Shown: piece after piece, positions 18,473 through 23,079 of the stretch
Numbering within the stretch: the first letter of the stretch is position 1
How the letters are laid out: the number at the start of each line of letters is the position of its first letter
Source: Mycobacterium sp. 3519A
Lineage (GTDB): Bacteria; Actinomycetota; Actinomycetes; Mycobacteriales; Mycobacteriaceae
Direction: 5' to 3'
Assembly (NCBI RefSeq): GCF_900240945.1
Contig: NZ_OESG01000013.1
Coordinates: 1,962,888-2,026,887 of the forward strand
DNA length: 64,000 nucleotides
The notes under the pieces: model-generated
Told to the model about the DNA's origin: nothing
What the model saw: the letters and a program-made list of their open reading frames with translations, nothing else
The model's database searches: none
Translations under genes and position numbers: made by a program

Positions 18473-19135
18473 TCACAACCGGCTCCCCGCGGGCGGCAAC
18501 ACCGCGAACCCCGCCAAGATCGTCGCGACGTCGTGTTCGGACTTCGCGCTGTCGGGTGCCGCGGTCGTCACCAGCGTGACCAGGCAGGTCTGGTCGGCGC
18601 CCTCGGCCACCACCACCAGCTGAGTGGCGGGCGCGCCGTGCCGTCCGCCGACGGCCTGATTGGTGACGGCCAGCGTCTCGGCGGGCCGCCCGCAGACGGT
18701 GCTGGCGGTCGCCCGCACGGTCATCGACAGGTCCTTGGCGGCGAGCATGTCCTCCAGCTGAGCCCGGTAGTCGTCGAAGATGATTCGCACATCCAGATCG
18801 GGGATTGGCTCCACCGTCACGACTGCGACCTCCTGAGGGCGCTGTCCGTCGCCGGTCGCGATGGCGAAACGAACGGATTCGTCGACTTCGTCGAGTTCGG
18901 TGGTGGGCCGCCACCCCGACGGCTGCGGTATCCGCAGCCGCGGTTCGGTGTCGCCGGCGGCCGGAATGTCGAGCATCGGCGCGTCGACGTCCGTGCATTC
19001 GCTCGCGGTGGCGGTGAGCGCGACCGGCTCGGCGACCTTGGCGTCGGATCCTGCGACGCAGGCGCTCAGCGGAATCATCAACCCAACCAGTGCGGCGGGG
19101 ATGAAGACCTTCTTGAGGGTCTGAATGCTCGGCAT
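18473..19135 (-). CDS. LpqN/LpqT-family lipoprotein
   Basis: A 220-residue lipoprotein. The signal peptide (MPSIQTLKKV..., h-region 10-22) ends in the lipobox PLSAC with C26. The mature region fits the Lpp-LpqN family: DIPAAGDTEPRLRIPQPSGWR, then a VAVVTVEPI strand and the VTLVTTAAP strand near the end. The ATG at 19135 has AAGGAG 7 nt upstream. An ATG at 19192 in frame would overlap the upstream membrane gene as ATGA but adds 19 residues before the signal. LpqN proteins of other mycobacteria interact with envelope transport machinery; here it is the last gene of a short sigma-linked operon. Confidence 0.75.
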   Translation of the reverse strand: MPSIQTLKKVFIPAALVGLMIPLSACVAGSDAKVAEPVALTATASECTDVDAPMLDIPAAGDTEPRLRIPQPSGWRPTTELDEVDESVRFAIATGDGQRPQEVAVVTVEPIPDLDVRIIFDDYRAQLEDMLAAKDLSMTVRATASTVCGRPAETLAVTNQAVGGRHGAPATQLVVVAEGADQTCLVTLVTTAAPDSAKSEHDVATILAGFAVLPPAGSRL

Positions 19136-19188: not shown

Positions 19189-19593
19189 TCATCGGATTTG
19201 CCGGGCCGGGGCCAGGGCGCGGTGAGTGTCGATGGCCACCGCACCGAAGGCCAGGTACGCCAACCCGAAGAACACATGCGGCAAGTCGGTGAACAGTTCG
19301 GCGCGAAACTCGTTGTGCACCGCGGCGGCGTACAGATCGCGAAGCCAGACGATCGACCAGACAAGGGTCAACACTGCGCCGATGCACACGCAGATACCGC
19401 CCAGCACTGCGAGCCCTCGGCGGCACGTCTTCGCGAACCGCTCATGAGTGCCCGACCGGCTCTTCTTCGTGCTCCACAGCGCGGTCGTCCGGCCAATCCA
19501 GCCCGATTGCACGCGTCGCGCCTCGGTCCTCATGCGCCCGGCCCAGTACAACAAGGCGACCGACAAGATCAGATCCCAAACGGCGGTTGTCAC
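19189..19593 (-). CDS. small 3-TM membrane protein in sigma island
   Basis: 134 residues with helices at about 4-19, 60-84 and 103-121 and a basic cytoplasmic loop (about 20-58, many Arg/Lys) between the first two. I do not recognise a family. The GTG at 19593 has TAGGAG about 10 nt upstream. It is the first gene of a two-gene minus-strand unit with the LpqN-like lipoprotein and is divergent from the first sigma factor. The shared bipartite element lies 38 nt upstream of its start. A sensor or envelope role is a guess from context. Confidence 0.65.
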   Translation of the reverse strand: MTTAVWDLILSVALLYWAGRMRTEARRVQSGWIGRTTALWSTKKSRSGTHERFAKTCRRGLAVLGGICVCIGAVLTLVWSIVWLRDLYAAAVHNEFRAELFTDLPHVFFGLAYLAFGAVAIDTHRALAPARQIR

Positions 19594-19631
19594 GTAGTGC
19601 TCCTATCTCGGTGGTCTCGAGCTGGCCTTTC

Positions 19632-19674
19632 ACAGGTAGGAGCGCCGTCGCGGCGGCATGCTGACACTTTTTCG
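19632..19674 (-). promoter_or_regulatory. bipartite promoter-like element, copy 1
   Basis: Read on the minus strand, the element is CGAAAAAGTGTCAG, then 17 nt, then GCTCCTACCTGT (19643 down to 19632). The same blocks with identical 17-nt spacing occur at 23037-23079. The proximal block is 38 nt before the start codon of the 3-TM protein gene. TGTCAG resembles an ECF-type -35 element, so this is a candidate target of one or both sigma factors of the island. Confidence 0.6.
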
Positions 19675-19677
19675 CGA

Positions 19678-19690
19678 GGAGGTTTCCTCC
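19678..19690. promoter_or_regulatory. GGAGG-TTT-CCTCC inverted repeat
   Basis: A perfect 5-bp inverted repeat with a 3-nt centre lies just outside copy 1 of the shared element in the divergent sigma-factor promoter region. A CCAATTGG palindrome follows at 19739-19746. Either could be an operator; nothing else supports this. Confidence 0.3.
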
Positions 19691-19773
19691 CAGTCGGCAG
19701 CAAATTCACCAACCTTGCGCGTGACGTCCTCAGCTGCTCCAATTGGTGAGGGAGTTGCCTGGCAGGAGGCGTA

Positions 19774-21063
19774 ATGACCGCGATTCCTGACTGGAACCTT
19801 GTCGATCCGCGCAACACCGACGCCGAACTGGTGAGCGGCAGTGTCGCGGGCGACAAAGCGGCGTTCGCCCAGATCTATGACCGCTACGCCGATCGGCTTT
19901 ACGACTTCTGCGTCGGCATGCTGCGCGACCGTGACGGCGCCGCCGACTGCGTGCAGGACACCTTCTGCCTGGCCGCGACGCGCCTGGTCCAACTGCGTGA
20001 CCCCGACAAGCTGCGGCCCTGGCTGTATTCGATCGCCCGCAACGAAGCGCTGCGCCGGCTCCGGCAACAGCGCCGCGAGACACCGACCGACGAGTTACCC
20101 GACGTCCAGTCCGAGGACGCCGGACCGGACACCGTGGCCGCCCGCACCGAACTCGCCGAGATGCTGGCCGAGGCCGCCGGCGGGTTGTCGGACCGTGACC
20201 GTGCGGTGTTCGACCTGGCGTATCGCCACGGCCTCAACGGTTCCGACCTCGCCGACGCGCTCGGGGTTACGCCGGCCACCGCCAACACCATCGTCAAGCG
20301 GTTACGCGGCACGATCGAACGGTCACTGGGTGCGCTGCTGGTGGCCCGGCGCGTGCGCGGCAGGGCGGGCAACTGCCCAGAACTCGACCAGATGCTGGCC
20401 AACTGGGACGGCCAGTTCACCGTGCTGATGCGCAAACGGATTTCTCGGCATATCGAGTCGTGTCCCAATTGCGACGACGAGCGACGACGCCTGGTCAGCC
20501 CGGCCGCACTGCTCGGCGCCGCACCGGTGTTCATCCCCGCGCCGGAGTGGTTGCGCGACAAGACACTTGGCGACATCCAGCTCGTCTCGCACGACAGCGC
20601 GATGAGCGGTCGAACCCCACACAAGCGTCGCTGGGCGGTAGCGGTCGCGGTGGTGCTCGCCGTACTCGGCGGCTCGGCCGCGCTGACATTGGCCTGGCTG
20701 AACAAGGATCCGGTGGCGATCATCCCCGCCGAGGTCAGCGAGCCATCGCCGCAACCCGTCGTCGAAAAACCCGCGCCGCCCAGCCCTGTGCCGCCACCGC
20801 CCGTCGTGCAGCCGCCACCACCACCGCCGGTGGTGCCGAATTCGCCTGCGCCACCGAGCCAGTCACCGACCTACGAACAGCCGCCCGCCGAGGCGCCCGC
20901 GCCGACCGCGGTTGAGCCACCCGACGCCGCGCCGCCGTCCCAGAAGCCACCGATGTCGTTCAGCCCGACCGTGATAGCTCCGCGCCCCGGCCCGCCGACC
21001 CCTGGCGGCAACGACGACGGCGGCGGTACGAGGACCGGCGGAAGCAGGGTCGGCGGCGCGTGA
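19774..21063 (+). CDS. ECF-like sigma factor with fused zinc anti-sigma motif, TM helix and Pro-rich tail (paralog A)
   Basis: 429 residues. Sigma region 2 (about 27-95, FAQIYDRYADRLYDFC and DCVQDTFCLAATR) and region 4 (about 136-190, LSDRDRAVFDLAYRHGL...ATANTIVKRL) are followed by C201, H226, C230 and C233. This spacing, C-x24-H-x3-C-x2-C, matches zinc anti-sigma (ZAS) domains. One TM helix (about 287-308) and a roughly 115-residue Pro-rich tail, presumably outside the cell, follow. AGGAGG-type Shine-Dalgarno lies upstream of the ATG at 19774. It thus looks like a membrane-tethered, self-inhibited sigma factor. It converges on paralog B 66 bp away. Confidence 0.8.
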   Translation: MTAIPDWNLVDPRNTDAELVSGSVAGDKAAFAQIYDRYADRLYDFCVGMLRDRDGAADCVQDTFCLAATRLVQLRDPDKLRPWLYSIARNEALRRLRQQRRETPTDELPDVQSEDAGPDTVAARTELAEMLAEAAGGLSDRDRAVFDLAYRHGLNGSDLADALGVTPATANTIVKRLRGTIERSLGALLVARRVRGRAGNCPELDQMLANWDGQFTVLMRKRISRHIESCPNCDDERRRLVSPAALLGAAPVFIPAPEWLRDKTLGDIQLVSHDSAMSGRTPHKRRWAVAVAVVLAVLGGSAALTLAWLNKDPVAIIPAEVSEPSPQPVVEKPAPPSPVPPPPVVQPPPPPPVVPNSPAPPSQSPTYEQPPAEAPAPTAVEPPDAAPPSQKPPMSFSPTVIAPRPGPPTPGGNDDGGGTRTGGSRVGGA

Positions 21064-21128
21064 ACCTCGGCTAGGGCACAGCCGACCCGCCCGGCGACGG
21101 GGCGGCGAGGTCGCCCGGACCTGTGAAG

Positions 21129-22304
21129 TCACCACCCGGCGGCGGTGGTGGCGGGGGCAACGGCCAACGCGGTAAGGGCTGGCTCTGGCGTCAGCTCTGG
21201 AACCGATTGCGGCACAACAGATGTGGGTGGCGCCACCCGCGGCGTCCACTGCGGCGGCGGTGGTGGGGTGACGGGCACGGACGGTGGCACCTCGATCACC
21301 GGCGGCGCGGGCATCGCAGGCGGGCGCACTGCCTCGCTGACCGTGATCGGCGGCGGGACGGTCGTGGCCGGTTGCGTGTTCACCCAGGCGACGGCCAATG
21401 CCGCCGCGGCGAGCAGCGCCACCACGAACGCCGCGACCGGCGCCCGTGGACCGCGCCTGTCCCGTTTGCCGCCAAGAGGTTTCGTCGCCGACGTCAACTC
21501 GATCTCGCTGAGCGTGCGCTCACGCAGCCACTGCGGCGCGGGGATGAACGCCGGGGCCGCCCCGAGCAACGCGGCGGGGGTGACCAGCCGCCGACGCTCC
21601 TCGTCGCAGCTCGCGCACGACTCGATGTGACGCGAAATGCGTTTGCGCATCAGGACATTGAAATGGCCATCCCAACCGTCGAGGATCCCGGCGAGCTCAC
21701 CGCAGCCGCCGTTGCTGCGCACCCGCCGCGACACCAGCAGCGCACCGAGCGACCGTTCGATGGTGTCGCGCAGCCGCTTGACGATGGTGTTGGCGGTGGC
21801 AGGCGTGACGTCCAGGGCGTGCGCCAGATCGGGTCCGCTGAGACCGTGCCGAAACGCCAGCTCCAACACGGAGCGGTCGCGGTCCGACAGGCCGCCCGCG
21901 GCGGCGGCGATCAAATCGGCGAGTTCGGTTCGCGCGGCCAGGGTGTCTGGACCCGCGTCATCTGAAGCCATATCGGGCAGCTCTTCCGAGGGTGTTTCGC
22001 GCCGACGCCCGCGGATGCGGCGCAGCGCCTCGTTACGGGCGATCGAATACAGCCAGGGACGCAACTTGTCCGGGTCGCGCAACTGGGGCAGCCGCGTCGC
22101 GGCGATGCAGAACGTGTCCTGCACGCAGTCCGCCGCGCCGTCCCGGTCGGCCAGCATGCCGGCGCAGAAATCGTGCAGCCGGTCGGCGTAGCGGTCGTAG
22201 AGCTGCGCGAACGCCGTCCGGTCGCCCGCTGTGGACGCCCGAACCAGGTCCCCGTCGGTTCCGGACGGCTCCACGATCTCCCAATGCGGTACTGCGGTCA
22301 TCAC
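21129..22304 (-). CDS. ECF-like sigma factor with fused zinc anti-sigma motif, TM helix and Pro-rich tail (paralog B)
   Basis: 391 residues, closely similar to paralog A through residue 275. Sigma region 2 spans about 28-96, region 4 about 137-190. The putative zinc ligands C201, H226, C230 and C233 are conserved at identical numbers, then comes a TM helix (about 288-308) and a shorter Pro/Val-rich tail of about 80 residues. It is the second gene of an operon, starting 23 nt after the proline-rich membrane protein gene, so the shared element at 23037-23079 probably drives it. Membrane release, perhaps by proteolysis, is inferred. Confidence 0.8.
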   Translation of the reverse strand: MMTAVPHWEIVEPSGTDGDLVRASTAGDRTAFAQLYDRYADRLHDFCAGMLADRDGAADCVQDTFCIAATRLPQLRDPDKLRPWLYSIARNEALRRIRGRRRETPSEELPDMASDDAGPDTLAARTELADLIAAAAGGLSDRDRSVLELAFRHGLSGPDLAHALDVTPATANTIVKRLRDTIERSLGALLVSRRVRSNGGCGELAGILDGWDGHFNVLMRKRISRHIESCASCDEERRRLVTPAALLGAAPAFIPAPQWLRERTLSEIELTSATKPLGGKRDRRGPRAPVAAFVVALLAAAALAVAWVNTQPATTVPPPITVSEAVRPPAMPAPPVIEVPPSVPVTPPPPPQWTPRVAPPTSVVPQSVPELTPEPALTALAVAPATTAAGW

Positions 22305-22327
22305 ACCGACCCCCTACTCCGATGGCG

Positions 22328-22990
22328 CTACGGCTTGACCGGGGCCTGCAGGCCGACATCGGGCAGGCTCGGCGGTTGCGGCTTCGGGTCCGGCTTGGGC
22401 GCGGGCGCCAACGGCAGGTCCGGCGTCAGATCCGGCTTCGGCTTCGGCGGATCCGGCAACTTGAAGCCCAGATCGTCCGGCACCGGCGGCACCGGGTCCG
22501 GCGGTTCGGGCTGCGGGTCCTCGGGCTCCGGGGTCGAATCGTCCGGCTTGGGCGGCAGCGGGGGATAGTCCGGAACCGGGGCCGGGGTCTCGACGACCGC
22601 GGTGTCCTGCGCGGGCGGCGTGGCGACGGCGGCCGGTGCGCGCGCAGGTGCGGGTGCGACGATGACCGGTGCCTGCTGCGGTACTGGTGCGGGTGCAGGC
22701 GCCGGAATGCTCGGCCCGACCACGACCGCACGCTCGTGCGCCGGTGTGACGATCGGGGGTTGTGACGAGTCGCCGAAGTCGAACAGCGTGACACCCAGCA
22801 CGGCGCCGCCGATGACGCCGGCCACCAGCGCCGCGGCGAGGATGGCCCGCTTCGGTTGCGGCCTGCGCTCCTGAACTATGTGCGGATCGGCCGGTGGGAA
22901 GCCGTAGCGGACCTCCCGCTCCGGCTGGCCGAGTTCGCTTGACGCCCACGCGGCGGCGATGGTGGCGGTGTTCGGATCGGTGGCGGTCAT
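22328..22990 (-). CDS. single-pass membrane protein with Pro-rich exterior domain
   Basis: 220 residues: a cytoplasmic N-terminus of about 48 residues, one TM helix (about 49-71, AILAAALVAGVIGGAVLGV), then about 145 residues dominated by Pro with Ala, Val, Asp and Lys (repeated PEP/PDP/KPDP). The ATG at 22990 has AAGGA 8 nt upstream. It begins the operon that ends with sigma paralog B. Its layout (TM plus Pro-rich exterior) echoes the C-terminal halves of both sigma factors, suggesting a partner or sensor in the same pathway. No family recognised. Confidence 0.65.
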   Translation of the reverse strand: MTATDPNTATIAAAWASSELGQPEREVRYGFPPADPHIVQERRPQPKRAILAAALVAGVIGGAVLGVTLFDFGDSSQPPIVTPAHERAVVVGPSIPAPAPAPVPQQAPVIVAPAPARAPAAVATPPAQDTAVVETPAPVPDYPPLPPKPDDSTPEPEDPQPEPPDPVPPVPDDLGFKLPDPPKPKPDLTPDLPLAPAPKPDPKPQPPSLPDVGLQAPVKP

Positions 22991-23036
22991 GATCGGTTCC
23001 TTGGTCTGCGTGCGCTGCCCCGATTGGGCCGCGGTT

Positions 23037-23079
23037 ACAGGTAGGAGCACCGAGCGGGCGCCACTCTGACAATTTTTCG
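23037..23079 (-). promoter_or_regulatory. bipartite promoter-like element, copy 2
   Basis: On the minus strand: CGAAAAATTGTCAG, 17 nt, GCTCCTACCTGT. The distal block matches copy 1 at 13 of 14 positions, the proximal block at 12 of 12, and the spacing is identical. It lies 46 nt before the start of the Pro-rich membrane protein / sigma paralog B operon, so the operon may be autoregulated. Confidence 0.6.

Follow-up and report, generated by a model that had tools for sequence, protein, structure and literature searches.

Two paralogous genes for extracytoplasmic function (ECF) sigma factors, here termed sigma A and sigma B, lie within a 64,000-nucleotide stretch of the Mycobacterium sp. 3519A genome (contig NZ_OESG01000013.1, forward-strand positions 1,962,888 to 2,026,887; hereafter the window, with positions counted from its first letter), together with two minus-strand operons that are each preceded by a copy of the same bipartite element (Table 1). 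As a preliminary description of this DNA had noted, one copy leads the operon containing sigma B, and the other leads a small membrane protein with three transmembrane (TM) segments followed by an LpqN-like lipoprotein; no copy was found ahead of sigma A within the window. On the evidence of conservation, position, co-occurrence, hairpin covariation and protein architecture, all read from sequence, an ECF sigma factor whose protein also contains a zinc-finger anti-sigma domain, a membrane segment and a proline-rich tail very probably uses these copies as promoters, for its own expression and for that of a small regulon.

Table 1. Features of the sigma locus in the window, and further sites of the element elsewhere in the same genome.
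Feature	Position	Strand	Description
LpqN-like lipoprotein	18473..19135	-	second gene behind copy 1; PF10738; start taken at MPSIQTL
Small membrane (3-TM) protein	19189..19593	-	first gene behind copy 1
Promoter copy 1 (predicted)	19635..19671	-	A-rich 19667-19671, -35-like TGTCAG 19661-19666, -10-like GCTCCTACC 19635-19643
Sigma A	19774..21063	+	paralog, 65% to sigma B, architecture as sigma B; divergent from copy 1
Sigma B	21129..22304	-	ECF sigma fused to HxxxCxxC block, hydrophobic segment, proline-rich tail
Leader gene of sigma B operon	22328..22990	-	N-terminal AWASSELGQP, one hydrophobic segment, proline-rich tail
Hairpin of copy 2 (predicted)	23013..23033	-	CGC-g-GCCC / GGGC-a-GCG, just past the predicted start; from fold, position profile and covariation
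Promoter copy 2 (predicted)	23040..23076	-	A-rich 23072-23076, -35-like TGTCAG 23066-23071, -10-like GCTCCTACC 23040-23048
Genomic site	C14:1481008		ahead of 124-aa secreted-looking protein, 50 nt from its start
Genomic site with CGTCAG	C12:954313		ahead of 266-aa protein
Genomic site with TGTGAA	C13:689817		ahead of aldehyde dehydrogenase, 135 nt to best start found

The element, TGTCAG followed after 17 nucleotides (nt) by GCTCCTACC, occurs at 19635-19666 and 23040-23071 on the minus strand. These are the sole matches in the window when gaps of 15-19 are permitted, and the pattern was absent from 100 dinucleotide shuffles. Both copies are preceded by CGAAAAA[G/T] and followed by TGT, and they lie 38 nt (copy 1, GTG at 19593) and 46 nt (copy 2, ATG at 22990) from start codons; the identity, shared orientation and start-codon distances given in the preliminary description are all borne out. 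Its statement that the spacers are otherwise different stands only in part, in that they do differ, with 9 of 17 positions nonetheless the same by eye. Its observation that no third copy exists is true of the window only, since five sites are present genome-wide once the A-rich flank is included.

The genome-wide pattern search which that description had proposed returned, across 7.3 Mb, the window pair as the only exact matches. With the A-rich flank and up to three mismatches allowed, five genomic sites were identified compared with none for the reversed control, and a one-mismatch search recovered the same five together with two unconvincing sites (reversed control, one). No Pfam family was found for the 124- and 266-amino-acid (aa) proteins that follow two of these sites. 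The short pattern with three mismatches was rejected as noise (117 matches, 289 in the control), and a control search for SigE/SigH-like promoters was uninformative (13 matches, 12 reversed).

Among 297 genomes of the genus, a degenerate form of the pattern with its gap fixed at 17 produced 106 matches in 45 genomes, compared with two matches for the reversed pattern. Homologs of sigma B were detected at an E-value of 1e-30 in 62 genomes, and the motif was present in 36 of these as opposed to 9 of the 235 sigma-negative genomes (the two together in 36, sigma alone in 26, the motif alone in 9 and neither in 226; Fisher p 2.4e-21, a value that is overstated because the genomes are related). Three of the nine motif-only genomes (G051, G241 and G325) possess a sigma-operon promoter and leader gene running into a contig end, and five others (G045, G101, G123, G218 and G237) are represented by weak single matches. 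Conversely, three sigma-positive genomes without the strict motif (G244, G246 and G263) carry a one-mismatch site upstream. From the side of the sigma gene, 34 loci were sampled, each from a different genome and for the most part those scoring highest among the 62, with 1.5 kb of upstream sequence (443 bases in one). The motif, with up to two mismatches, was found upstream of 26, compared with three loci for the opposite strand and none for the reversed pattern; when gaps of 15-19 were allowed, all six matches in the first sigma loci had a gap of 17. Two genomes, G184 and G331, have the site directly ahead of the sigma gene, at 119 and 128 nt.

The matches are also positioned as expected for promoters. 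From 102 distinct matches in the extracted loci, five rows were dropped (the weak singletons L081, L086 and L088, the truncated duplicate L021, and L105, in which the contig ends inside the first gene), leaving 97 sites for the counts of position, clusters, columns, folding and arm swaps; the single matches of G123 and G237 are outside the 102, and the 297-genome comparison retains all of these genomes. Eighty-one of the 97 sites lie 30-60 nt ahead of the best open reading frame (ORF) start, compared with 13.8% of random positions, and 67 lie at 46-53 nt, compared with 3.6% (81 of 100 at 30-60 nt with the three weak singletons kept). The proteins behind the 97 sites fall into 29 BLAST clusters, which are not 29 independent families: the leader is split over several, and a few of the picked ORFs (such as those in L022, L167 and L169) are probably wrong. 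Ten example targets included Pfam matches above cut-off to LpqN (PF10738), OmpA, alpha/beta hydrolase, aldehyde dehydrogenase and a partial aminotransferase, matches below cut-off to CDP-alcohol phosphatidyltransferase and methyltransferase, and three proteins with no Pfam match; several further targets start, by eye, with signal-peptide-like segments. At one locus (L181), three sites within 9 kb precede a protein with an OmpA domain and two secreted-looking proteins rich in glycine. We take the latter two to resemble PGRS proteins.

Across 62 distinct sites, columns that were no part of the search are conserved as well, comprising A at positions -13 and -12, T from -7 through -5, G at both 21 and 28, and TGTGA followed by GCGGCCC-A-CC-GGG behind the -10-like block; the A-rich part upstream is strongly conserved. 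A pair of blocks with almost constant spacing, close upstream of both the targets and the sigma operon, corresponds to the organization of an ECF promoter, with TGTCNG and GCTCCTACC in place of the AAC of the -35 and CGT of the -10 that are typical of such promoters (PMC3426412). ECF41 promoters are described in the same source as likewise lacking AAC in the -35 (PMC3426412). The core promoter would be composed of the A-rich upstream part, a -35 of TGTCNG, a 17-bp gap and a -10 of GCTCCTACC. Should GCTCCTA serve as the -10, the first base of the RNA would be the A of TGTGA or one close to it, near 19630 for copy 1 and 23035 for copy 2. Sigma co-occurrence, placement upstream of 26 of 34 sigma loci, start-codon distance and the few control matches support both the ECF-type promoter proposed in the preliminary description, a reading that is well founded and was, if anything, understated, and the autoregulation that it read from the sigma B operon. 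Some spacers look palindromic, and a spacer dyad acting as operator was considered and rejected, as the folding excess is weak (only about 0.2-0.6 kcal/mol below shuffles). A weak and unexplained excess of spacer self-complementarity was seen on swapping arms, both over the 62 sites (-3.92 against -3.29, 0 of 200 swaps as low) and by target cluster (-3.96 against -3.25, 2 of 200).

Both sigma proteins have the composition of an ECF factor with regions 2 and 4 only. PF04542 is found in both, PF08281 in sigma A below cut-off and not in sigma B, and TIGR02937 is above cut-off in both, spanning the two sigma regions. The sigma part is followed by a C...HxxxCxxC block, in which HxxxCxxC is unchanged across all 10 sequences aligned, and then, read by eye, by a hydrophobic segment and proline-rich tail. 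This arrangement of C-terminal zinc finger, TM segment and long tail is a fused membrane anti-sigma architecture like that of ECF48, ECF52 and ECF53, despite the lack of any Pfam zinc-finger match in either protein. The region-4 helix TPATANTIVKRLR is identical in sigma A and sigma B, and the two may therefore read the same promoters. Neither the leader nor the 3-TM protein has a Pfam or NCBIfam family. An AWASSxLGxP peptide like that at the N-terminus of the leader recurs in a second, separately promoted protein (L084, L095, L100, L157 and others), and may bind the sigma factor or its anti-sigma part. A short sigma form was also observed, with open frames of about 264-278 aa and apparently no membrane tail (L027-L029, from G036, G001 and G010, and similar rows). 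Two named relatives were identified, namely Mycobacterium sp. ACS1612, whose sigma B is 91% identical over the best segment, and M. deserti (60%). ACS1612 has four sites around the sigma pair, two of them looser, and one of the looser two stands directly ahead of LpqN. Separate sites seem to serve its 3-TM gene, a small gene and LpqN (L077:10733-11768, the last two looser), and LpqN relatives elsewhere have their own site; LpqN of the window, second behind the 3-TM gene, has no such site, which looks like the loss of a piece.

A second conserved feature lies just past the predicted start. The folding energy of a 24-nt window at 42 nt past the motif start is 3.7 ± 0.35 kcal/mol lower than in shuffles, with same-size windows at 39 and 45 nt reaching -3.2 and -1.8 kcal/mol, the window at 24 nt reaching -1.2, most others between -0.6 and +0.8, and those from 48 nt on at or above zero. 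Counted by target cluster the value is -3.98 ± 0.52, and 23 of 29 clusters are below -1. The arms covary, as judged from a fixed 7-bp stem on the 62 sites with 500 shuffles and slid-stem controls: 62.7% of cells are paired versus 53.9% in shuffles (0 of 500), and the covariation score is 0.196 versus 0.111 (0 of 500; no slid stem exceeds 0.111). Changes on both sides affect 30 cells versus 13 (0 of 500), but slid versions reach up to 26, and double-sided change in all seven stem pairs is also attained by 116 of 500 shuffles. In an alignment-free test, swapping arms between clusters costs 2.8 kcal/mol, with 0 of 200 swaps as low, and a control region farther downstream shows no such effect. Perfect stems of at least 7 occur at 19 of the 62 sites versus 1.1 in shuffles, and of at least 5 at 36 versus 12.3. 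Copy 2 in the window possesses a good hairpin. Transcripts from the majority of sites would begin with this structure, it being transcribed first from the predicted start. The ompA transcript is an example of a 5'-terminal stem-loop that stabilises mRNA. Such stabilising stem-loops (PMC3997798) are alike in having the hairpin, predicted in our case, at the very 5' end, and differ in that ours has covarying arms and is found again and again within a single promoter class, behind many of its sites.

Taken together, these features are consistent with a feedback circuit in which RNA polymerase with the fused sigma A, sigma B or both would read the promoter. In the resting state, the sigma factor's own C-terminal zinc-finger anti-sigma domain and TM segment would hold it at the membrane, until a surface signal frees the sigma part, by analogy through stepwise proteolysis. 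The freed sigma would transcribe the leader-sigma B operon, resulting in positive feedback, as well as a small set of other genes, several encoding secreted or envelope proteins, and the 5' hairpin might protect the mRNA or tune early elongation.

A number of observations weigh against this interpretation. The genus-wide search held the gap at 17 and so cannot demonstrate its rigidity; the free-gap search of this genome gave one extra match with a gap of 19 (C13:1883811), as many as its reversed control, and two of the five sites in this genome are imperfect (CGTCAG at C12:954313, and TGTGAA at C13:689817, 135 nt from a start). The relaxed motif is absent at 8 of the 34 sigma loci, one of them the locus with only 443 upstream bases, and chance may account for a few of the 26, given that the motif stands on the wrong strand at three of the 34. 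For the hairpin, RNAalifold on a MAFFT alignment of the sites predicted no pairs, which probably reflects variation in loop length and register; a good hairpin is lacking both at copy 1 (-5.1 kcal/mol) and at its ACS1612 counterpart (mean dE +0.3), and the structure is absent in the CDP-alcohol cluster (six sites, +1.6). Finally, one genome, G013, has a good site and no sigma found, which is unexplained, and 26 of the 62 sigma-positive genomes lack the strict motif. These last two observations would also fit a promoter read by another sigma factor, and the strong conservation of the A-rich part would fit an additional activator required there, with sigma A and sigma B being mere neighbours or targets; given the co-occurrence with the sigma gene and the placement ahead of the sigma operon, we regard this as improbable.

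Less probable still is that the whole block represents a transcribed RNA element, such as a leader or riboswitch-like structure, rather than a promoter. The covarying hairpin just downstream and the slight excess of pairing in the spacer might be read in this way, but that pairing is weak, the hairpin is located where the start is expected, part of the conservation is A-rich sequence upstream, and both blocks keep their sequence, with 17 bases between them in every match obtained when sigma loci were searched with a free gap. A recent duplication or functionless repeat, which the likeness of the window copies over about 43 nt and their shared spacer bases could suggest, is very improbable and already contradicted by conservation across the genus, where 62 distinct sites with divergent spacers precede 29 target-protein clusters in dozens of genomes, in line with the preference for selection in the preliminary description.

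Beyond the genus, a sigma homolog was found at an E-value of 1e-25 in 14 of 200 genomes of the order, seven of them outside Mycobacterium. A related form, TGTTGGC...CTCC[CT]ACC, is present at three of these seven loci (L030-L032, L214-L217). At L031 it lies upstream of the sigma gene on the same strand, and behind it comes a GC-rich hairpin (-12.2 kcal/mol) whose sequence differs; at L032:1385-1416 and L215:2594-2625, both from genomes of another family, it stands beside the sigma gene, facing away, ahead of a divergent gene and without a good hairpin. Because two of these had already been seen when the pattern was chosen, and it has no control, the relatedness is suggestive only.

Actinobacteria have been predicted to encode ECF sigma factors that carry a membrane anti-sigma domain in the same protein, and ECF48, ECF52 and ECF53 are expected to be freed by proteolysis (PMC8999054). 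In the relevant parts of that 2022 review, the only fused sigma with characterised proteolytic release is from Pseudomonas (PMC8999054): IutY of Pseudomonas putida combines sigma and membrane anti-sigma in one protein, and proteolysis frees the sigma factor. Our proteins share this combination, and differ in that IutY serves Gram-negative iron-siderophore signalling and that proteolytic release is here proposed by analogy. SCO4117 of Streptomyces coelicolor (ECF52) has a sigma factor with zinc finger, TM part and proline-rich tail, with autoregulation suggested (PMC5826349). It thus resembles the present system in both fused architecture and autoregulation, but ECF52 proteins carry a carbohydrate-binding domain, whereas Pfam detects nothing past the sigma regions in sigma A or sigma B, and the published putative motif, CSGYN-17-SRHA (PMC5826349), is unlike ours. 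ECF41 factors of the SigJ type read TGTCACA - 16 ± 1 bp - CGTC, with a single target transcript detected (PMC3426412), and carry a SnoaL-like domain (PMC8999054), which Pfam does not find in sigma A or sigma B. They are alike in their TGTC-type -35, nearly equal gap and fused C-terminal regulatory domain; they differ in that here a zinc finger and membrane tail are present, GCTCCTACC replaces CGTC, and there are several sites per genome. Neither the motif, the regulon nor the hairpin was found in the part of the literature searched, and a prediction may exist in the main ECF classification paper.

These results provide a fused sigma family in Mycobacterium with a concrete candidate promoter, a candidate target list and a feedback loop open to testing, and the recurrent 5' hairpin represents an unexpected second layer. 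More tentatively, and with somewhat more doubt than confidence, one tethered sigma family might mark most of its targets with both the promoter and a 5'-terminal hairpin conserved in structure, the two spreading and evolving as one module. If so, activation would set not only the transcription but also the lifetime, or early elongation, of the regulon mRNAs.

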